A DNA stretch of 64,000 nt from Karstenula rhodostoma CBS 690.94 (lineage: Eukaryota > Ascomycota > Dothideomycetes > Pleosporales > Didymosphaeriaceae), in assembly GCA_010093485.1 (NCBI GenBank), contig MU001497.1:66181-130180 (forward strand). Direction: 5' to 3'. Position 1 is the first letter of the stretch. Each line of letters starts with the position of its first letter. Made by a program: the position numbers and the translations under genes. The notes under the pieces were generated by a model, which had not been told where the DNA came from, searched no databases, and saw only the letters and a program-made list of their open reading frames with translations. Below, piece after piece: positions 8,409 to 22,421 of this stretch.

Positions 8409-10045
8409 ATAATATTTAATATTATATATAAATAAAACTAAGGCTTAATATCTATAAAATTAATAAAATTACTAAAATTTACTAGAAACTACTTAGTTCT
8501 AGATATAGAGGTAGTATAAGTCTAAAATATTTTATTAATATTATTACTAATTTTCTTATCTAGATTCTAAACTATTTAATAAGGAATCTTAATATCTAGT
8601 ATATAGAGAAGGTAGGGTAACTATTAAGAAATAATAAGGAGTATAGTTTAATTAATAAAGATATTCTTATTAGTATTTTAAGATTAAATAATATATAATA
8701 TAGGGCTATTATATAGAATTTTATATAATTTAATATTATTTTATATTAGCTAATCTTAAATAATATAAAATAGTATTAAATAGTACTATTCTTTATAAGT
8801 TAGTACCCTATTTAAAATTAAATAAAATTAATAATAGTAATTAAAATAACTATAGCTTTTATAATTAAGTTCTAGTACTACTATTCTTTTTATAAATTAT
8901 AAGTTAGATTTAATAATAGTATTATATATACTATAGTATAATTAATTTATTTTATATAAAGTATTTATAGCTTAGTCTAGTCTTTAAAACTATTAGTTAT
9001 CTAGTAATTTAATAGTATAATTCTATTAGTATATATATATAAAAGGTATTTATTTATATTATTTAAATATAAAATCTTAAAAAAATAATTATCTAGTAAA
9101 TTATTTATAAATAATAAAACTATTTTTTATATTTATATACCTTATACTAGTAGTACTTATAGGTATTATTTACTATAAATTATAATAAATTTTACTATAG
9201 GAATAATTAAATACTAACTAGATATAATTTTTATTAAGTTAATATATACTAATAATCTATAAACTAGTTAGTATACTTATATTACCTTATAACTAAGTTA
9301 TAAATATAAAAGTATAATTTAAAATATAAAAATTTCTAGAGTAGAAACTAAATTTTAATATTCTAGAAATCCCTTTTACTATATATAACTCTTTAGAGTA
9401 ACTTAAAAAAGTTATTTATTAAGTCTAGTTAGCTCTTATATACTTATTAAAAGATATAATAATATTTATTTAGAACTAAGTTTTAATTCTTAGTTTAGAC
9501 TAAATCTTAATAGTAAACTTTAGTTCTAATATTATATTTATATATTTATTAACTCTAATACTCTCTAATTTATTATTTTATAATTTACCTAGTATTATTT
9601 CTTAATTAGAAAACCTAGATAATATTAAGCTTATTAAAGTAATCTATATAGGGATTTATTAAAAATCTAAATACTATTATATTAGTAACTAGCTTTTTAA
9701 ATACTAATAAAGTTATATCTATTACCTCTAGCTATATATATATTAGTAGTAAAGATACCTTTAGAATATTATAGATAGAGGTAACTATATTTAAATAATA
9801 AACTATTATTTAATAGTAATAATACTAGAGATTTATAAATAGATATAATAATATCTAGATAATATTAATATAAAACTAAAATATATATTTAAGCTATTAC
9901 TAAACTATAATACTATTAGAATTATTATAAATTTAATTAATATTTTCTTTAATTATATATAGAAGGGAGTAGAAGGTACCTATCCTTTATAAAAGTAAAA
10001 GGATTTTCTAGAAAATAGTCTTTAATAGCCTTAATAAAATATATT

Positions 10046-10070
10046 ACTAATTTACATAAACTAAATTAGT
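10046..10070 (-). other. 3'-terminal hairpin of the Helitron-like element
   Basis: Nine-base perfect stem ACTAATTTA / TAAATTAGT around the 7-base loop CATAAAC. It lies about 10 bp from the inferred 3' terminus (minus-strand reading) and just outside the inner inverted repeat. A hairpin shortly before the 3' end is a defining Helitron feature thought to signal termination of rolling-circle transfer. Confidence 0.85.
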
Positions 10071-10071
10071 A

Positions 10072-10084
10072 TATTTATAACGAA
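10072..10084 (-). repeat. Inner (3') copy of the 13-bp asymmetric inverted repeat
   Basis: TATTTATAACGAA here is the exact reverse complement of 19,833-19,845. This copy is subterminal, inside the hairpin, whereas the other copy is terminal. That is the arrangement described for Helentron/Helitron2 elements. Confidence 0.8.
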
Positions 10085-10451
10085 CCCTTATTACCTATAA
10101 AGATAAAAGAGGAAGTGTATAGTAACTATATAAGAATTATAGTATAGAAAAAAAAAGAATTTAAGAGAGTATAGTTAGTAGGGCTAAATAGGCTAGAACT
10201 ACCTAACTATACTAAAGAGGTATTTTACCTAGTATTATACTACTATTAAGGTAGTACTGAATTACCTACTAAACCCTAGAGAGCAGTATTTTCCTTAAAA
10301 ACCTAATTAATAAAAACCTATTACTACTATAAACTTTATTCTTTATATATAAGCACCCTAAAGTATAATTAGTAAATAGAGGTATTAGTTCTAATACCTA
10401 GCCTAATACTTATATATAAGCCTAGCGCTAGGTAAACTAAGATAGTATATT

Positions 10452-11141
10452 CTAGTAAGGACTAATTACCCTAGTAAGTTAGTAAATATACTAGATATCG
10501 CGCTTTATAATAGTAATACGCTTAGTATAGATATAGGCTAATAGTATACCTAAATTCAGTTAATAAATATAATAGAGTCTAATACTAGGACTAGTACTTA
10601 TACTTAAAAAAATAAACTAGAAAGGCCTTAGAGGCTTCCTAAAGAGCCACAATAGTACTAGGCTAGAAGTAAAGGCTATAGACTAGGTCTTTATTAATAG
10701 TCTTAGGAAGAGTATAGCAGGCAGAGTAGAAGACACTATAATTAATAGCTACCTCCCTTACTAGGCGCTAGAATAGTAGCTTAGGGATAAGTAGGTTAGT
10801 ATTCTTCTAGAACTGGTAGATCTTGCGAAGAGCTATAGCTAGAGAATATTAGCCTAATACTAGCCTAATACTAGTACTATACTTATTACTAAGTTTATAG
10901 TAGTAAGGCTTCTTAACGCTGCTAGTAGTTAGAGTAGATTGCTAAGCCTTAGTAGGTAAACTAAAAGTAGTAGTTTTATAAGGGGTCTTAGTAGCTATTA
11001 GATAACTAGATAGACTAGCTATAATATATAAGTATAGGGCTAATACTTAGGACTAATACCTAACTTACCTTAAGCCTTAGCCTTGCCCTTACCCTTACTA
11101 CTAATAGGGCGCGAAGGCTTAATCTTTCTATACAGCGCTAT
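10452..11141 (-). pseudogene. Histone H3 / CENP-A-like gene carried by the Helitron (decayed)
   Basis: Minus-strand translation gives a basic N-tail (ALYRKIKPSRPISSKGKGKA) starting at a codon that is now ATA, consistent with ATG changed by RIP. After a GTAAGT intron it continues to KKPYYYKLSNKY and then the histone-fold helices: ALRKIYQFQKNTNLLIPKLL, FQRLVREVA, FQPSTIVALQEASKAFLV and, after another probable intron, TKRITIIKRDI. These align with canonical H3 stretches such as alpha-N, L-FQRLVREIA, ALQEA-E-LV and KR-TI-KDIQ. Stops are all of the CAG/CAA to TAG/TAA type. The segment between VREVA and FQPS is longer than in H3, either from a 46-bp intron beginning GTCTTC or from a CENP-A-like longer loop 1. 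The ITI motif also leans to CENP-A, so the subtype is unresolved. It lies between the element's hairpin end and a divergently oriented cargo gene. Confidence 0.8.
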
Positions 11142-11905
11142 ACTAGTAAACTTATAGAGATTATTTATAGGTAGGATTAATTAAAGAGGGTTAATAGTTT
11201 ATAGTATTAAGGTAAAGAAGAGAGAGGGTAAAAGAGTAGAAACTATAGTACTTATATAGATTATATAATAGGCTTACTTAGCGCGCACGCGCAATATAAG
11301 TAAAAGCAAACTAGAAAAAAGTAAAGGTAAAAGGTAATAAATTAGAAAAAGAGCTCTATATTCGCAAAAACTTAACCTATTTAAGCTATTATAAGTATAT
11401 ATAGGGTATTAGGTAGTATTAGTCTATATAGTAAAAAAAGCGATAGAATATTCCTACTTTTAGGTAAGGCGTATTTACCTTTATTTTAGTAAGTAAGTTG
11501 TAAAGGCACCTTAGCGTTTATAGTAAGAATAAAAAGCAAATATATTCTAACTTTATAAAAACTTAATATATTTAAGCTATCTTAAGTATATATAGGGTAT
11601 TAGGTGGTATTAGTCTATATAGCGAAAAAAGCGATAAAATATTTCTATTTTTAGGTAAGGCATATTTACCTTTACTTAAGTAAGTAAAGGCGCCTTAGCG
11701 TTTATAGTATAAGTACTTAATAGATAGGTATATAATAGTAGGGTTTAATTATATAAGGTCTACTTATAATATTTATTAATAACTTCTTCTATTTACCTTT
11801 ACTACCTTTCTTCTACACTCTATATTACAGGACTATATAGTTACTTATCCTATACCTAATACCTACCTATTACCTTATACCTAATACTTACCTAATACCT
11901 CTACT
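11142..11905. repeat. Divergent intergenic region of the Helitron with a 191-bp direct repeat
   Basis: Two copies of a unit starting AAAAACTTAA begin at 11,366 and 11,557 (period 191). The second ends near 11,712 with GGCGCCTTAGCGTTTATAG. The repeat sits between the histone-like gene (minus) and the unknown cargo gene (plus), so it may be promoter DNA. Copies differ mostly by transitions. Confidence 0.7.
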
Positions 11906-13420
11906 ATAGCAGACCCACCTAATATTAAGAAGTATAAAGGCGCTAAAGAGTACTCTTTAAATAAGAGTATAAAGAAAAATATAGCTACTTAGGTAAAGAA
12001 GACTAGTAAAGAGCTTACTATAGAGCGCGATAAAACAGCAGATAATATATATTACTCTAAGTTCTAAAAGAATACCTTCCTACTAGCTACGCAGCTAATT
12101 ATTAATTAGCTACTAATAAGAGACCAGCCTAATATACTAAAACAGTTACGTATCTAGTTAAACAATATATATAATATAATATAGTAAGTTAAAGAAGTAT
12201 TAGGTAGTATTAGGTACTAATATATTTAATAGCTTTAATACTAGAACTACTTGGCGCTATAAGGTAGCAGCCCGTACTAGCTAAGATATTAGTAAAATTA
12301 AGGCTAAGTAGTTTATAGAGAAGTAAGTTTAGTATTTTAATATTTTTAGTTTCCCTACTCTAACTCTAATAATACTAATATCTACCTAACTACCTAATAC
12401 CTTAACTAATACTGGAGCCTTATTATTAAAGACTTTAGACTAGTAATTACTTAACCTATCTACTATTCTTAAGAGAAATAAGAAAGAAGAAGTTAAAGTA
12501 GACTAAAAGGCCTTTAGGTAAGAAGTTCTTAATACTAAAATTAGTATTAAGAATATAGCTACGCTTAATACCTAGATTATTATAAGGGATAAGACTACTA
12601 AATACTTTAAAACTCTATATAAGAAGTAGAACTATCTTTACTAGGGTTTTAAGATTTTTCTTAATAACCTATAGGATAAAGATCTCCTATTTATAAGTAT
12701 ATAAGTATTTTAAAACTAATACCTTACTAATACCTACTAGGTATAGATTAAGTAGATACTAGCTAGGTTAGATATATAAGTTTAGGATCTGATTCCAGTA
12801 AAGAGGATATTAGCTTAAAAGAGTATAAAGGTAAGTTCCTATTTAAACTATAGTATTCTTAACTAATTTAATATAGTACTATATACTATATAAGGCAACC
12901 TTATTAGCTATATAATATCTCTCTATATATAAGACTTTAAGAATTGCTTACCTACTATTTATAATTTTATAGTCTAAGTAGGAGAGGGTACTTATTAGTC
13001 TATTCTATATAGCCTAATTTACTGGCTTCTTCTACTAATCTATGGTCTGTGTAGTATACTAGAATATATATAAAGAGGGTATTACTCTACTACTTCCTAG
13101 TCTATATAAGAAGTATATACTATACTCTATTTTATAAGTAAAGTATTAGCTATAGTATTAGGTATTACTAATAAGTTAGGGACTATATATTTAGAGCGAG
13201 TAGATTTACTAGCAAAGAGGCTGCTTATATTCTAGATATAGTATTTAGCGATAAGGAGGATCTACCTAATAATATAGATTAAATTATAGATATACTTTAT
13301 AGCACTAAGGATAAGGACTAGGTAATAAATTAGCAGGAGGTATAGTATTAGGCATACTAAAAGGTATTAGGCCTTATAATAGCTAGAAAATAGTCCCTAA
13401 GTATAAAAGTAACTAATTTA
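11906..13420 (+). pseudogene. Unrecognised cargo gene of the Helitron (decayed)
   Basis: Starting from an ATA (probably a mutated ATG) at 11,906, forward translation gives a hydrophilic, Lys-rich protein beginning (M)ADPPNIKKYKGAKEYSLN. It continues through FLLATQLIINQLLIRDQPN to about 12,200. Coding-like stretches resume downstream, for example VLNTKISIKNIATLN near 12,530 and FRASRFTSKEAAYILDIVF near 13,200. Stops are of the Q-to-stop type, and introns are likely between blocks. It converges on the Rep-helicase gene. No domain was recognised. It could be a captured host gene or an accessory gene of the element. Confidence 0.5.
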
Positions 13421-13427
13421 ACCTCTA

Positions 13428-16400
13428 TTATTTATCCTTCTTTCTTACCTTTATATATTTCCTATTTTTAGACCTTAGATACTGGAAAGGAAAAGAAGTC
13501 TTAAATATAAAGCCTTTAATACTCTATACACGTAATAGGGTAATATATAGTAAACTAGTAATAAAGTCCTTTTTCCTAGATATAAGTATCCTAGCTAAAA
13601 TAAGACTAAAACCTTAGGACTTATATACTGTAATAGCCTATACTAAGTAGAGAGGAAACTGGACCCGCGTAATAACTACCTAGTTATAAAGGAACTCGCA
13701 AGATATAGGGAAGATAGGTATAGCTACCTTACCTACCTCTATAGTATATAGACCAGGCCCTATATACTAATTAAAGGTAGTAAGAATAGCTAAAGGGGGT
13801 TCCTTTATATAGTCTATAGTGGCTGGATACTATATAATATTATTAACCTCGCTAATAGCTCTATTAACAAGACCACGCTCAGTCTAAGTATTAGCTAGAA
13901 GTATAACCTTAGCACTAATAGAAAGGAGAAGTTTACTCTCTAGATTACTAGCTTCTATTAATAGTATTATTACGTGTATAGGGTTATTATATTTAGCGTA
14001 GTAGGCTAATACTGGCTGGTATTAGTCCTAAAGATAATTATAATTAATTATATTAACCTTATAGCGTTTAGCGTAGAGGTATATAGAATTATAAAAAGTA
14101 TCTATCTCTAAATCCAAAAGAATAGCCCTATAATAAGTTTGGAATAGTAACTAGTCCTACTAAGTACTTTTATTAACTTAAAGTTGTAAGAGGGTATTCT
14201 AAAAGTTGGCCTTACTATCTCCTTATTAGTGTTAAACAGTATTAAGAATAATAGTTTTTAAGAATTACTAGTAGAGCTACTTTACGCAGGTATTAATAGG
14301 TCCTTTACTTAGTAATGGATTATATAAAGGTCGCTGGGTAATAGGTAGTAGCTAGTAAAAGTCTCTAGATATAATAATATTTAGGCTAGCAAAAGAGAGG
14401 TATATAAATTAAGGATAGATTTTACTAAGTTAGGTACTAATCCAAGCTAGTATATTAAGACTAACTATAGACTTCTTATTAATAATAAGATAGTGTATAG
14501 AGAAGAAAGTAAACTGTAACTACTATAGAGTAGTAGTAGGTAGTGGTGGTATAATCCCTCCTATATATATAATTGGAATCCGGAAAAGGCTATTAATTAT
14601 TTGGCCATTAATTAGGAATATAGTAACTCTAGTAGGCGCAGATTAGATAATAGGAGATAGTATACCTGCTTCCTTAGCTAGTTAATTAAGGTAAGTTAAA
14701 ATTATTTTAATAACGTAGGTTTTACCAGTGCCAGCTTTCCTATTAAGATTAATAAGAAGCTATAGTAGTACCCTCCTACTAAGGATTATCTTAAAATAGT
14801 TTATTACTGCGTTAAAGGCAATCCTTTATTAAGTAGCCAGAGTATTAGGGTTAGTATTAGGCTATTCTACTCTAGTAATAGGATGTTCCTGGATTAACTG
14901 CTTCTAGTAGGTTAAACTACTTAGGTCCTAGTGGTTATTATATTCCTCAGTACCCTAGTCCTTAGTATAGTTAATAGGCCTAGACTCTAGTGCATCTTAG
15001 TTAACTAGTTTACTATTAATAGTAGGTCCTTAAGCTGCTAGCTTATCTAACTTAAATTGGTCTTAAATAGGTATTTCTTTAAGTTCTAGGTCCTCTACCT
15101 CTACCTAATTAAGATCATCTCTATAATAATTAATATACTTATAGGTATAATATATACAATAATAGTAATAGGCCTTAGTATTAGTCTTAAATAACTGCCC
15201 CTAAAAGTTGCGAATATTATCTATATACTAGAAGGGATAATAAAGTATAAGCTTAACACGATAGAAGTAGGCTGGATCTAATATAGGAGAGTACTGTAGA
15301 TAATAGAATAGAATACGTAGTTTAGCCCTAGGTTACCTAGAGGGGATCTTACTCTTATAATTAAAATATAGAAGGAAGTTAATATAGTAGAGGCTATTAA
15401 GTATAGATAGGCGTTCCTTATATTTCTAGAGTATTAACTTTCCACTCTAGAATAGAGTACTATTAGGATTAAGCTCTTCCTTATTTATCTATTAGACTTA
15501 ATAAAAAAAGAATATAGTAGACTATACTTCTTTAGGCTGGCAATTAATACTTATTATAACCTGTATAGACTGTATAAGTAGAAGGCTAAATAGTATATAT
15601 ATAACTTCTTAGGCTAAATAGTCTCTTTCCCTAATTGTTTTATTTATAAGCTTAGATATAAATAAAGTAAGAGTATAATTTTTACTTAGGTAGGGAAGAA
15701 TAGATACTGTAAGGTTTGCGTAGGAAATAGTATATTTTTTAGTCTTTAAGGTATATACACTAATATACTAAACTATACCAGCTATACTAGTATAGACTTA
15801 GATATTAGTATTAGCCCTCCAGCCCAATACTAACGCAGGATAGAAAGGGTTAAGTTATATATAATTATAGACAGGTTTAAAGCGTCTATATTACTTCCTA
15901 GGGGGAATAATAAAAGTAGGGTATAAATAAGTAGGCTAAGGAGCCCTAAACCTATAGGTTTCCTCTCCTATAGTAGTATTCTTCTAAAGACAGTAACTAG
16001 AAACACATTAGTATATATAATACCAGGTAAGGATTAATAATAGTTCCTAGTTATTAAACTTTATTTCTATAAAAGGAAGTGATAATAGTATCGCGGTATT
16101 AATTAGAATAATAGTACTATTAGATTATATTAGTTTAGGATAGATTACTAAAATAGTATTAGACTAGTATTAGGCCAGGCGTTTAATATCAGCCTCTATA
16201 GCTAAAGGGCCTAATTCTAGGTCTAGATCTAGAGTATTACCAATATAGTAGAGCCTATAGTTATAGGTACTCCCACGCCCCTACCATTTATAGCGATCCC
16301 AGGAGTCCTGGATATTAAGAAGAGGGATAAGGATATACTTTTTAAATATAGTAAATTAAATATAGAAATAGTAAGCTATAATATAAGGATATTCTTTTAG

Positions 16401-18250
16401 AAAGTCCTAAGCGAGTCTCCTCTATATATTTAAGGTTACTACCTGCCACTCCTTAAATCGTAGTATAAACCAGAGGAGATTATACCAAAAGTTATTAGTA
16501 ATAGAGAAAGTAATAAATAAGATAGGACTTTTTAACTACTTAATCTAGAAAGTATTAGGCAGGTATTAGGTAGTTAAGGTTATAATAACTTACTGTAGTA
16601 TTAAGCTTCCTACCTTTTTATTGCCAGTATAGCCGTGTTCCCTAGAGCTAGGCGCCTATATAAACAACAGAGTTAATTAGCGATACTCCTTAATTAGGCC
16701 CTAAAAAGGTAGCCTGAATATCCTTAGCCTATAATAGAAAACTATTAATACCTCGCCTAGCCATAAAACTAGCCTATATTGCAGATACCTTCTATATTAT
16801 TATATTAAATAGAGTAAACCAAAATTAAGGATAGTAAGTAAAATATCTATCTTTATAATAAAGAAGGTAATATATATAGGTAATAAGATTAACTTCTTAT
16901 AGACGAGGCTCATTATAATTACCTATACTAGTAGGGTATAGTAAAGGGAATATAAGACTTAGGTAATAAATACTTCTAGTAAACTTAGTAATTAGTATTA
17001 GGTAAATAGCTCCCATAAAGAGGTAAACACAGCTAGTATAAGAATAAATTTAGTCCTAAAGAGATTTAAACTTAGGGGCAGCTGCACCTAAATTAGGTAT
17101 AGCTAAGACCTCTAGAGACTTATCCTTATTCTTATATATATTATCTTTAGTACTAGCCTCTTTATTACTACTATATACGCTCTTACCTCCTCCTTATATA
17201 GAAGTAGTACTGGGTAGTATACTACCTATATTTAAAGGATAAGACTACTAGCTAAAGGAGGTATTAGATATAGTATTAGTTATTTAACTAAAACTAGAGT
17301 CTTTAGGACTAAGGTAAAGAACCTCTAGTTACTACTTAATAGAACTATTAATAGAAAGGGATACAAGAGCCTTATAGTTAATAGTAATATTTTAGTAGCC
17401 AGGATAATAGGTAACTAAAAATAGAAGCCACTACTATATAATAGAACAGCGTATATAGTAGTCCTTCTTAAATTAGTAATTAATCCAATCTAGGTTATCC
17501 CCCTTAGTCTAGGCAGGCTTTAGGATAATAATCTTAACCTCTTAAGAAAACTATAGAAGTTAAGAAAAAGGTGTTACTATATTAATAGCAAAGTTATAGA
17601 TATAGCCGCGATAATAGTATTAGGCCCCCCTATAGGTACGTATCTCTATAGTAACCTAAACCTAAGCAAGTAGGTATTCTTCTATATTAGTAAGAGGTGG
17701 TAATAATAAAGATAGAGGCCTTAAATCTATATTATTCCTACTTCTATATAATAGAATAAAATCTAGTCTATTATTCTTTATCTAATCCTAGTAGCAGTTA
17801 TTACACTCTCCCTAGATAATATAGAGGTTAAACCACTAGCGATTATAGATAGAGTAAGTACTTATCTAAATATTCTTAAGCTCCTAATAGAATACTAATA
17901 TATAGTTTAATTCTTTAGGTAGAAGTGTAAGTTCTTATAGATAGTCTAGATTTATAGGATCTAAAGGTTACTAAATAGGAGGATCCTACTAATATATTTA
18001 GTCTTTAGTAGTTATAAAGTCCTCTATAAAGAGGTCCCTACTACTAAATTTATCCCTACTACTTTTATCGCTATAATTAGGTACAGGACTATTAGAGGAG
18101 GTAAAGTCTAATACCTTACCTAATACCTATAGACCTAGGGATATAGGAGTAGGCTAGATAGGTATTTATACTATTATAAATTAAATAGATCTTGTATCCA
18201 AATCCTCTATATATAATAGTAAAGGAGTATATAGTGTTAATTATATTGTG
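13428..18250 (-). pseudogene. Helitron Rep-helicase (RepHel), RIP-inactivated
   Basis: Reading minus-strand 5' to 3', the N-terminal region near 17,600-17,830 contains CNNC and the block IEEYLLAQV, with RGYIYNF, resembling the DUF6570-type N-terminus of Helitron proteins (Q read where TAG/TAA stands). Around 16,620-17,000 follow FPLLYPTSIG and SVVYIGAQLQGTRLYWQ, typical of the Helitron_like_N domain. The Rep HUH motif is at 16,257-16,265, within WDRYKW-GRGSTYNYRLYY, where the family has H-N-H; both His read Tyr through C to T changes. The Pif1-like helicase follows: Walker A KAGTGKTYVIK (14,718-14,735 core), SAPTRV...LINGQIINSLF, then GPGLYTI, IPIFPIS, and AITVYKS-GFSL near 13,605-13,640. It ends at 13,428. 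Frames stay aligned over hundreds of codons with only RIP-type stops. The gene is dead but almost full length. Confidence 0.88.
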
Positions 18251-19832
18251 TTTGGCCTAGGAGAGGATATTAGAAGAGGGATCTAATAGGCCTTATATAA
18301 TAAATAATAGCTATCCTAAGATAACCTTTATAGGGTTAGTCTTATTAGGGTAAAGAGCTATAAAAGACTTAGTAAAGATAATAGAGTATAAGGTGTAGAA
18401 TATAGTTAAGTTATAGTATTAGTAGGCCCACTAATAACGCGGCGTTTAGAAAGAGGTATAATAGGAGTTAGTAGAGAATATTTTTATCTATAATATATAC
18501 AGCGTTTCTTTAGTTTTCTATTTATAAAGATATTAAGAATTAGATTAAGTAGATAACTGTATTTATAGTAGAGTAGTATAGGTCCCTGGCCTACTATTAC
18601 TAATTAATAGAGAGATAGTATATAGCTAGAATAGGTAGTATAATATAAAAACGCGTCTATAAAGTAGGTATTAGTCTAGGTATTAGATAAGGATACACGT
18701 AAAAAAAAAAAGGCAGGGTATAACTAATCTACTTTAAAAATTTATTTTATACTAATTTAGAAATATAATCTATTATAGGAGGAAATACTTTTATTCACTA
18801 TTATCTATATAATCTTAGAAGAAGGGGAGAATAATATCTTCTATAATAGACTTAAATTACTTAGCCTTATAAAGGCGCCACTTAGCCTATTCCTAGAGCT
18901 CTAGAACCTTATAAAAGAGGATATACTCCTAGTTAGAATTATTAGGATACTCCTTATACTACTAATGCTATCCTATAACAATTGTATAGTACTTAAGAAA
19001 GGTATACTAATAAGGAAGTAAAGTATTATAAAGAGAGTATTATATAGTATTTATAGTAGAATATAATAGGTTAGCTAGTAAAGATATATAGGATAATAGT
19101 GTACTTTTTAATATAGAAGGATATAGTATTGCGACTTTAGGGTAGGTAAATTTAGGGGGTAATAGCGCCTATAAATCCCTATTAATATTAGTTAAGATAA
19201 TAATAAGGAGGGATATCTATACTTTATTCTATCTATTATAGCTATAATATTATCCTAGATAAGTATATCTATATTATATATAATAGGCGCTTTAGTACTA
19301 GGAGAACTTCTACTCTATTAGAAGGTATTAGGAAGCACTATAGAAATAAAGGATATAGATAGTATTCTATAGGTATAGAATATCTTAGAGGATATTAAGG
19401 TAGATAAAGGAGATAGTATAAGACTGCTAGAAGTATTATTAAAGTTAAGTATTATAACAGCGTTGTGGTAAAAGGATAGATAAGGGATAAAGTTAAATTA
19501 AGTTAAAAAGGAGATTTTAAGTTTTTAAAGTATTAGTTAGTATTAGGCTAGACTAATACCTAAAGAAGGATCGCGTACTAGGTAAATATTTAGAAATATA
19601 TAGCTAAGTTTAATATTCTATAGCTAGAGCGGTTATAGATAATATATTAGTTATATTAGTGTTTAGGGAAATATTGTTATATCGCGTTTTAAGGACTAAT
19701 TAGAACGTGTAAAACGCCTTTTTTTAGCCAATAGAAAGCCTAAAATCCTCTATCCCGATTAGGCAATATATAGCCCTAAGGTTTAGCCGGCTATATAGAA
19801 GCTCTACTATAATAGTTTACTTCCTCACTTTA
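18251..19832 (-). other. 5' section of the Helitron, possible further decayed gene
   Basis: Between the RepHel start and the 5' end lies about 1.6 kb of intermediate-AT DNA. Minus-strand translation near 18,780-19,000 gives a hydrophilic, Gln/Glu-rich coding-like stretch (for example EYILFYKVLEL and SIIEDIILPFFQDYIDNSE). I could not assign it to a family. It may be an extra cargo gene or an unusually long leader. Confidence 0.3.
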
Positions 19833-19845
19833 TTCGTTATAAATA
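19833..19845 (-). repeat. Terminal (5') copy of the 13-bp asymmetric inverted repeat
   Basis: TTCGTTATAAATA ends the element at its right side. Host-repeat sequence ATAATAAGGGC resumes at 19,846. It pairs with 10,072-10,084. Confidence 0.8.
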
Positions 19846-22421
19846 ATAATAAGGGCTACTATAATAAAATATAATTAGTAAGACTTTAATTTAAATAATA
19901 CTATTTTTTTAGATAAATTATTTAATAATACTCTATATCTATTAGATTAAAATAATAATAATAAGGAGGTAGGTACTAATAATATAATAAATTAAGTATA
20001 AACCCTAATCCTTTAATAGTTATATTATTTTATTTTATTTTATAAGTACTAAATATAATATTCTACTATCTACTATTATTTAATTCTAGTTTACTTTAAA
20101 TATTATTAAATAATATTAAATATATCTAAGAAGGGTAAAAAGTATACTATATAAAATAGTACTACTAATAATACCCCTACTATCTCTATAGAGAAAGTTA
20201 AGAAGATAAAATTAAATATTAAAAATTAGTAGGAACTAACTAAGTATTATATAAAGTATAATAAAATAGTTAGAAATAATATTTTTTTTTTTTTTTTTTC
20301 CTTTTAGGGTAAAAATATAGAGCTCTACTAATCTAATTTTATATTAATTTATATATAATTATATTAAATAATAGTAAATAGTATATATTCTTATTTTTAA
20401 TATAATTATATATAATAACTAAAAGTATTTTTTATTTTATTTTAGATTTACTATCTATAAATATATTAGGAACTAATATAATATTATATTTATTACTAAA
20501 GAATAATATTAAATAATATTAAATACTATAGTATAGTATAAAATAGTTTTACTTTATATAGAATCTAGTAGAATAGTTAGTTATAAATAATATAATCTTA
20601 CTTTAGATTTACTATTTAGAATTCTATCTATAACTAATTTAATATTATATTAATTACTAGAAAATAGAATTAAATACTATTATATTCTATATATTTATAT
20701 AAACTAGTTTTTTTTTTTATATATAGTTATATAGTATATAATTTTATATATAGATTATAACTTATTTAGATTTTTATAGAAAAGTTATATTTTAGTATTT
20801 TATAGAATTATAACTCTATATATATCTATAGAGACTTACTATTTACTATATTTAGTAGTTCTATTACTTAATAAGTAGATACTTATATAAGAATTAAAGA
20901 TAATTACTATTTATTATACTTAGTAGTTTTATTATTTATTACTTATAATTTTATACTTATCTCCTTCCTTATAGTAGGTAAGAATTTAATAAGCTTATTA
21001 AGTAAATAGTTATTATTATAAATACCTATTAAAATTATATATTTTAGAGGTAATATAAACTAAAAAGGTATAATTCTACTTTATATATAATTAAAACTAG
21101 AGTTTAATATTTTAAAAAGTTCTTAGAGCTATCTATTAGTTAATATTAAATAATATAATTTAATATTAAATACTATCTAATAATATTAATTAGTATCTTA
21201 CTAGTAGTTTCTACTAGAATTAGTATTATTATAAATACCTACTAAAATTATATATTATAGAAATAGTATAAACTAGAGAGATATAATTCTACTTTATATA
21301 TAGTTAAAACTAGAGCTTAATACTTTAAGAGGTTTTTAAAGTTACCTATTAGTTAATATTAAATAATATAATTTAATATTAAATATTATCTAATAATATA
21401 AGGTTATTATAGTTAAGTTATAGTTAAAATAGATAGCTTAAATATTAATTTTAAAATTAGAAAATTTTATTAATTATTAAGTTTACTATCTTTTATATAC
21501 TTAGGTAATATAGTTAAATTATATAAATATAAATACTATTTTAGCTATACTTATAAACTATATATTATAGAATAAAATCTTATTAATATAGCTAGAATAT
21601 ATTTTATTATTTAAGTTAATAGTTTCTAAAATTCTTATTAGTAGTTAACTAGATATTATAAAATTAATTATAGAAAATATTATAGGGCTTTTTTAAAAGC
21701 TATTTATATAATATTATAAATAAGAGTAATAAAAACTTTAGTTCTTATTTTAAACTAATTTATACTATAGGTATCTAGTATTTAATAGAATTAAGTCTAA
21801 ATTAATAGCTTTTAATTAAGTAGATATATACCTAGTACTTAATTAAATTAAATTTAAATTAATAACTTTTAATTAGATAGGTATTAGAACTAGTAAGGTA
21901 TATTATTTTAGTAATTACTAAGAATTTTCTTTATTTAATTAATATAGTTTCTTAAAAGCTATCTATATAATAGAATACTTTTAATTAAAACTAAGAATAG
22001 TATAATAGTATACTAAATATAAAAATAGATTACTAATAAAATATAATAGCTTTTATTAGATTATAATACTACTATATAATTTAATATAAATAAAAATAAA
22101 TTAAATATTATTATTTATATTATATCTTTAATCTAACTAGCCTTTTATATATTATATAATATATAAATTACTATAAAATTATATTAAATAATATTAAATA
22201 TAGAATATTTCTAAAAACTAACTTAGTATTCTATAAAATAGAATAAAATATTATAATATAGTACTTTTTTATATTAGGGTTACTATATAGGCCCTATTTC
22301 TATATAAACTAATTCTATATTATATTTATTATTATAGAATAATATTAAATAGTATTAAATATAAAAAGTCTATAGAATATAATATAGTTTTATATAAATA
22401 GAAATTTTTTTTTTTTATTTT

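Follow-up and report, generated by a model that had tools for sequence, protein, structure and literature searches.

Histone sequence in a Helentron has already been published for a mosquito. The passages of Thomas et al. 2014 on Helentron-Cq-32A of Culex quinquefasciatus describe parts of two histone genes, 244 bp and 87 bp long (83-84% DNA identity to the host genes), in eight copies, with a premature stop, a frameshift and indels in the histone sequence, and they present histone capture by a Helentron as otherwise undocumented (PMC4067079). As far as those passages describe the mosquito element, the locus analysed here is alike in that a rolling-circle element holds histone sequence which was amplified along with it. 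It differs in that the histone sequence is a split gene with the introns of H3, whose frame was open in exons 1 to 3 before RIP, in its copy number of at least 47, and in the strong remodelling of the tail and loop 1. The domain match given in the mosquito study, smart00428, is presumably the SMART H3 model.

FoHeli1, FoHeli2 and the Helitrons of Chaetomium globosum, in the sections that describe their ends, share with the present element an asymmetric inverted repeat, the 3' terminus ATATTTT and insertion after TNAT, followed in elements of this type by T or A (PMC5148889). According to the same sections, a 3' hairpin is common to FoHeli1, FoHeli2 and our element, the 3' repeat is set back by 38-51 bp in the FoHeli and C. 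globosum elements and by about 36 nt here, and FoHeli1 and FoHeli2 measure about 6 kb and 5 kb, compared with 9.8 kb for the present element with its DUF6570 domain and H3 gene (PMC5148889). The word 'histone' is absent from the main texts of the Fusarium (PMC5148889) and Pleurotus (PMC4289320) Helitron papers; a fungal co-option screen contains it three times, and of 12 passages from that study none deals with a captured histone (PMC10799480). The first-pass annotation of this locus had named no described case of a centromeric-type H3 as cargo in a fungal Helitron, which holds among the matches listed, where a nearly whole, intron-bearing H3 gene in a fungal Helitron appears to be without description; for Helentrons in general the claim gives way to the mosquito fragments (PMC4067079). 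Among the matches listed, no title or abstract opening mentions a whole histone gene in a Helitron.

Transposons carry enzymes that undo silencing marks. For fungal DNA transposons and Helitrons that bear TET/JBP genes, the relevant passages propose that the element-borne modification gene serves escape from silencing (PMC12730594). By analogy, we regard these as the nearest functional analogue of our element, with the difference that they encode an enzyme which removes methylcytosine, whereas the gene described here specifies a structural histone (PMC12730594). The model for the effect that we propose is Neurospora hH3-K9L / K9R, where, in the part of the study on these alleles, an H3 without K9 acts beside wild-type H3 and has a dominant effect; those are laboratory point mutants of normal H3 (PMC3248561), whereas our gene differs from H3 throughout the N-terminus and in loop 1. 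If our reading is true, a structural H3 without the silencing lysines would represent a different transposon tactic from that of mark-removing enzymes. Even as passive cargo, an intron-bearing and nearly whole histone gene would have been amplified by a fungal Helitron.

The window, a 64,000-nucleotide stretch of Karstenula rhodostoma DNA, is AT-rich and RIP-saturated in its first 23 kb: CpA+TpG counts come to 5 in the 10 kb of the left flank, 205 in the 9.8 kb of the element and 5,317 in the 40 kb of the genic part. The features of the element are as follows.

10035..19849, minus strand: complete element of the Helitron2 type, 9815 bp with 29% GC, its 5' end on the high-coordinate side
10046..10070, minus strand: 3' hairpin, 9-bp stem and 7-nt loop, 10 nt before the 3' end ATATATTTT
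10071..10083, minus strand: 3' copy of the asymmetric inverted repeat, 13 bp, TTCGTTATAAATA, set back from the end
14328..14744, minus strand: PIF1-like helicase, E 1.2e-4, below the cut-off in the damaged window copy
16269..16878, minus strand: Helitron_like_N in two frames, 16878-16579 (profile 1-110) and 16541-16269 (profile 107-184 of 191)
17365..17745, minus strand: DUF6570, Pfam 1.2e-8, above the cut-off, upstream of the Rep and helicase domains
19833..19845, minus strand: 5' copy of the asymmetric inverted repeat, 13 bp, TATTTATAACGAA

The DUF6570, Helitron_like_N and PIF1 domains are consecutive on one strand, which they share with the H3-like gene, and together with the 3' hairpin they bear out the Helitron-like setting that the first-pass annotation had proposed. 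Judged from its sequence, the element is assigned to the Helitron2 type. Both Helitron_like_N pieces (E 0.072 and 0.0022) fall below the Pfam cut-off in the RIP-damaged window copy, and a PDB search with three frames of 13.8-18.0 kb gave no match at E<=0.1. Folded as DNA, the 3' hairpin reaches -6.2 kcal/mol (z -2.23), which 6 of 200 shuffles equal or surpass. The 5' end, where some members of the Helitron2 group also have a hairpin, has no convincing one here (fold z 0.14). Target site probably accounts for the TTAT at the outer edge (19846-19849) and for the final A (10035). TTAT stands at the 5' side in all eight copies for which both ends are available, where it could also be element sequence, and the base after ATATATTTT is A in seven of the eight and T in the other.

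In two copies, neither strand of the roughly 2 kb between the H3-like gene and the helicase (11900-14200) gave a meaningful Pfam match. The 11.9-14.2 kb stretch, which corresponds to the divergent cargo gene of the first-pass annotation, matched nothing at E<=1 in the window copy and in one other copy except Sda near 14.1 kb, at chance level (E 0.05-0.11). Low-stop frames shift in this stretch, which suggests that another gene was lost there. Adjoining the H3-like gene, the element also contains a direct repeat of about 160-170 bp (11366-11525 and 11546-11709), at which the copy on contig C3 has lost 101 bp.

The first-pass annotation had read H3-fold blocks on the minus strand at 10452..11141, and both the blocks and, to within a few bases, the coordinates are correct. 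We found a split histone H3-like gene on the minus strand (11141-10445) with at least four coding pieces, interrupted by RIP-type stops and beginning at 11141 with the first codon of exon 1.

11069..11141, minus strand: exon 1, translated in frame 0, new basic N-terminus
11019..11068, minus strand: intron 1, GTAAGT...TATAG, 50 nt, phase 1
10887..11018, minus strand: exon 2, equivalent of the H3 tail from K14 to T45, without K27 and with no K9-position lysine at its start
10839..10886, minus strand: intron 2, 48 nt, phase 1, within codon T45; other copies read GTAAGTATAG...CTCTAG
10604..10838, minus strand: exon 3, alphaN, alpha1, loop 1 with 18 extra residues, alpha2
10445..10578, minus strand: C-terminal part, TKRITIIKRDI..., frame 0

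The blocks quoted earlier lie in two frames (F*RLVREVA and AL*EASKAFLV in frame 2, TKRITIIKRDI in frame 0). An unspliced 5-kb translation matched Pfam Histone with E 0.0048, under the cut-off; the spliced 191-residue product, which follows our best splicing judgement with X placed at the stops, matched PF00125 with E 6e-10 (39.9 bits, cut-off 26.4) and PDB histone H3 chains with 1.6e-15, and the histone reading of the first-pass annotation stands after this profile check. We scored a residue as RIP-compatible if the codons observed can be derived from the H3 residue through no other changes than C to T or G to A. By this measure 74 of the 93 aligned core residues are compatible with host H3 (44 are identical), and 2,000 shuffled H3s reached a mean of 16.9 (sd 3.5, maximum 29). 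This shuffle test and the Pfam Histone match rule out a chance resemblance to H3.

The first codon of exon 1 is ATA in 30 of 30 copies, and we infer that it was an ATG which was lost through RIP. In other copies, introns 1 and 2 are bounded by GT and AG; the window copy has ATAAGT at the 5' end of intron 2. Exon 3 is 58% identical to the host H3 exon when TAG is counted as Q, and its predicted structure (mean pLDDT 58) was too poor for use. A third intron, with the 5' site GTATAAGT at 10603, is likely. At the junction of exon 3 and the C-terminal part we found no good splice sites in the right phase, and a normal intron would not fit into the 25-nt gap left by the adopted reading. Because this junction could not be placed on good in-phase splice sites, the C-terminal part may already have been damaged. 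A motif like GTATTAG / TACTAGTATTAG is common to the introns of the H3-like gene (10886-10839, 11068-11019 and 10603-10550) and, judged by eye, also occurs elsewhere in the element.

Compared with H3, the gene has a new basic N-terminus encoded by exon 1, a loop 1 that is longer by 18 residues, and a core of which at least 20% is changed. Lysines 9 and 27 are missing as aligned; the sequence before K14 is poorly conserved, so that the absence of K9 depends on the alignment and on the intron as an anchor. Neither the residue aligned with K9 nor the first residue past intron 1, which is K9 in H3, can have been lysine; K9 would fall at 25/26, and the closest residues compatible with lysine are 22 and 35. 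For K27, both candidate residues are incompatible with a lysine before RIP. RIP changes C to T and G to A, and the lysine codons AAA and AAG can therefore arise, and never vanish, by RIP; the losses of K9 and K27 would thus be older than RIP. At the positions that correspond to K14, K18, K36 and K37 the residues are compatible with lysine, and K23 is ambiguous, with a lysine-compatible residue two places off. Not every silencing or activating site is gone, because K4 of H3 is aligned with a lysine-compatible residue.

In the one assembly that we searched (44.3 Mb in 29 contigs), H3-like copies occur in at least 47 places, 40 from a DNA search and 7 more from a peptide search. The counts of H3-like and Rep places are lower bounds, as DNA searches report about 40 places. 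The 3' end of the element lies within 60 bp of its expected distance at 36 of the 47 places, and a Rep segment lies within 400 bp of its expected distance at 26 of them, which rules out that the H3 segment is a separate, later insertion; it belongs to copies across the family, a point that the first-pass annotation had raised as a possibility. Seen from the Rep side, an H3 match lies no more than 400 bp off the expected distance at 26 of the 40 places listed, and at 9 the nearest same-strand H3 match is off by 1.8-8.2 kb, as an insert or a neighbouring copy would produce. The other 5 of these 40 places have no H3 match within 20 kb, and since at least two of them have the middle of the element at the expected distance, family members without the H3 gene may exist.

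We compared eleven other copies with that in the window. Five are gap-free from end to end (9,814-9,818 bp) with 90-93% identity, one has a single gap, one has a 101-bp deletion, two show no gap within the 8,965 bp retrieved, and each of the last two is broken by an insert, near 12074 in one and near 13108 in the other. In a base-by-base comparison of seven copies, 1,833 of 1,901 variable columns were C/T or A/G, as were 262 of 269 in the 801-bp H3 region of 30 copies. Because the variable columns are almost all of these two kinds, the copies must have been nearly identical before RIP. The copy on contig C17 (959341-960141) is nested in another copy, its flanks matching element positions 14078-15135 and 15123-17277; the family thus inserts into itself.

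RIP has put stops into the H3 frame of all 47 copies, and the only stop-free matches are the host genes for H3 and CENP-A. The adopted H3 reading has 12 stop positions, each of which is a stop in at least 29 of 30 copies. Reversing RIP by aligning copies would not work, as many sites are converted in every copy. The base 3' of variable cytosines in seven copies was T in 961 cases, A in 423, C in 417 and G in 32, and this excess of T presumably reflects that most CpA had already been converted in all copies, as in a very heavy, second-phase RIP.

The stops themselves carry information on the earlier state of the gene. Seven fall within the 93 aligned codons, five on a Gln and two on an Arg of H3 (P about 5e-6 if random), and because the core stops occupy these positions, the frame was open before RIP. 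Length changes relative to H3 in exons 2 and 3 preserve the frame. Transversions relative to host H3 affect 12 of 93 codons at position 1 and 15 of 93 at position 2, and at third positions 4 of 39 twofold-type and 14 of 54 fourfold sites; RIP-incompatible differences number 14, 17 and 22 of 93 at positions 1, 2 and 3. These counts weakly suggest that the protein changed at about half the rate of silent sites, which would mean mild constraint at most, in tests of low power. We estimate that, when the burst took place, the H3-like gene coded for a protein of the element and was under relaxed or diversifying evolution.

Our tentative preference, at somewhat less than even confidence, is that the captured H3 was kept as a gene of the element, remodelled and multiplied with it, and possibly acted as a dominant anti-silencing histone. 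A Helitron2-type element of a filamentous fungus would have captured a canonical H3 gene at the DNA level, with its introns, and this gene would have stayed protein-coding beside the Rep/helicase of the element while it acquired a new N-terminus, lost K9 and K27, gained 18 residues in loop 1 and changed in at least 20% of its core. The H3-bearing element would then have spread to at least 47 copies, near-identical in those compared, before RIP broke every copy found. The product, if expressed, would enter nucleosomes as an H3 without K9 and K27 and could dominantly block heterochromatin silencing, which would open a window for expression and movement of the element. The strongest form of this idea, namely that a Helitron lineage encodes such an H3 to counter heterochromatin and RIP-linked silencing in a dominant-negative manner, strikes us as rather unlikely.

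Passive capture is the chief rival, a real possibility if a less than probable one, and our estimates for it and for the preferred reading are near each other. On this explanation, H3 was caught once, brought no benefit, drifted near-neutrally and was copied only through early multiplication of the element. Helitrons and Helentrons do catch genes, including the histone gene fragments present in eight copies in Culex according to the passages cited above (PMC4067079). Codon positions 1 and 2 of the H3-like gene change fast relative to fourfold sites, as drift would predict, and the C-terminal splice that cannot be placed fits a gene without a function. However, such divergence without selection also predicts frameshifts and stops of a non-RIP kind, and there are none in exons 2 and 3.

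An improbable alternative is that the histone was maintained for another job, either in chromatin on the circular intermediate or in the targeting of insertions to AT-rich heterochromatin. Changes in loop 1 are typical of specialised H3 variants, and the copy in the window, to which this observation is confined, sits in AT-rich, RIP-saturated surroundings; however, these surroundings may merely reflect RIP of the repeats that lie there.

The comparison with the host genes bears on the origin of the captured sequence. A search of the assembly with host H3 recovered one H3 gene, one CENP-A gene, one tail-like stretch and the window copy. The CENP-A gene was named from its own sequence, which has a longer, Trp-bearing loop 1 and a divergent tail; a Trp within loop 1 and a tail that does not resemble the H3 tail are hallmarks of CENP-A/CenH3. 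Phase-1 introns interrupt codons R8 and T45 of host H3, whereas host CENP-A is continuous around T45, with an intron that follows QRLV. The H3-like gene follows host H3, with a phase-1 intron in the T45 codon and an uninterrupted QRLVREVA from which the CENP-A intron is missing. It also keeps the H3 tail residues VKKP, its loop-1 residue is compatible with Phe and not with Trp, and its tail aligns with that of H3 at a score of 51.8, compared with a mean of 32.9 (sd 4.1, maximum 47.6) for 200 tail shuffles. Among 25 columns that discriminate H3 from CENP-A, 14 fit only H3, 3 only CENP-A, 4 both and 4 neither, and RIP-compatible core residues number 63 of 93 for CENP-A (36 identical) against the 74 for H3. 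The long loop 1, the divergent N-terminus and the three columns that fit only CENP-A would speak for a centromeric origin. Relative to H3, loop 1 is extended by 18 residues in the H3-like gene, far more than the 3 in host CENP-A. Capture of a centromeric-type H3, as the first-pass annotation had proposed, is largely contradicted by introns, tail and discriminating columns, and we consider it very improbable. With a recognisable K14-K37 part of the tail, and K9 and K27 missing as aligned, the gene reads as a derived, not a canonical, H3.

At the positions that read ESV..AY in host H3, the Helitron copy reads EAS..AF; because of this difference, the captured gene may have come from another fungus, or may have changed here at a later time. 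The tail-like stretch found in the assembly search (locus L063, contig C5, about 320,033-320,170, minus strand; VARQKQTARKSTGGPALRKQLASKAARK) lies in a 397-residue frame without a Pfam match at E<=0.01. It resembles the N-terminal tail of H3, with 63% identity to H3 1-48 (E 2e-6), and may be a histone-tail mimic.
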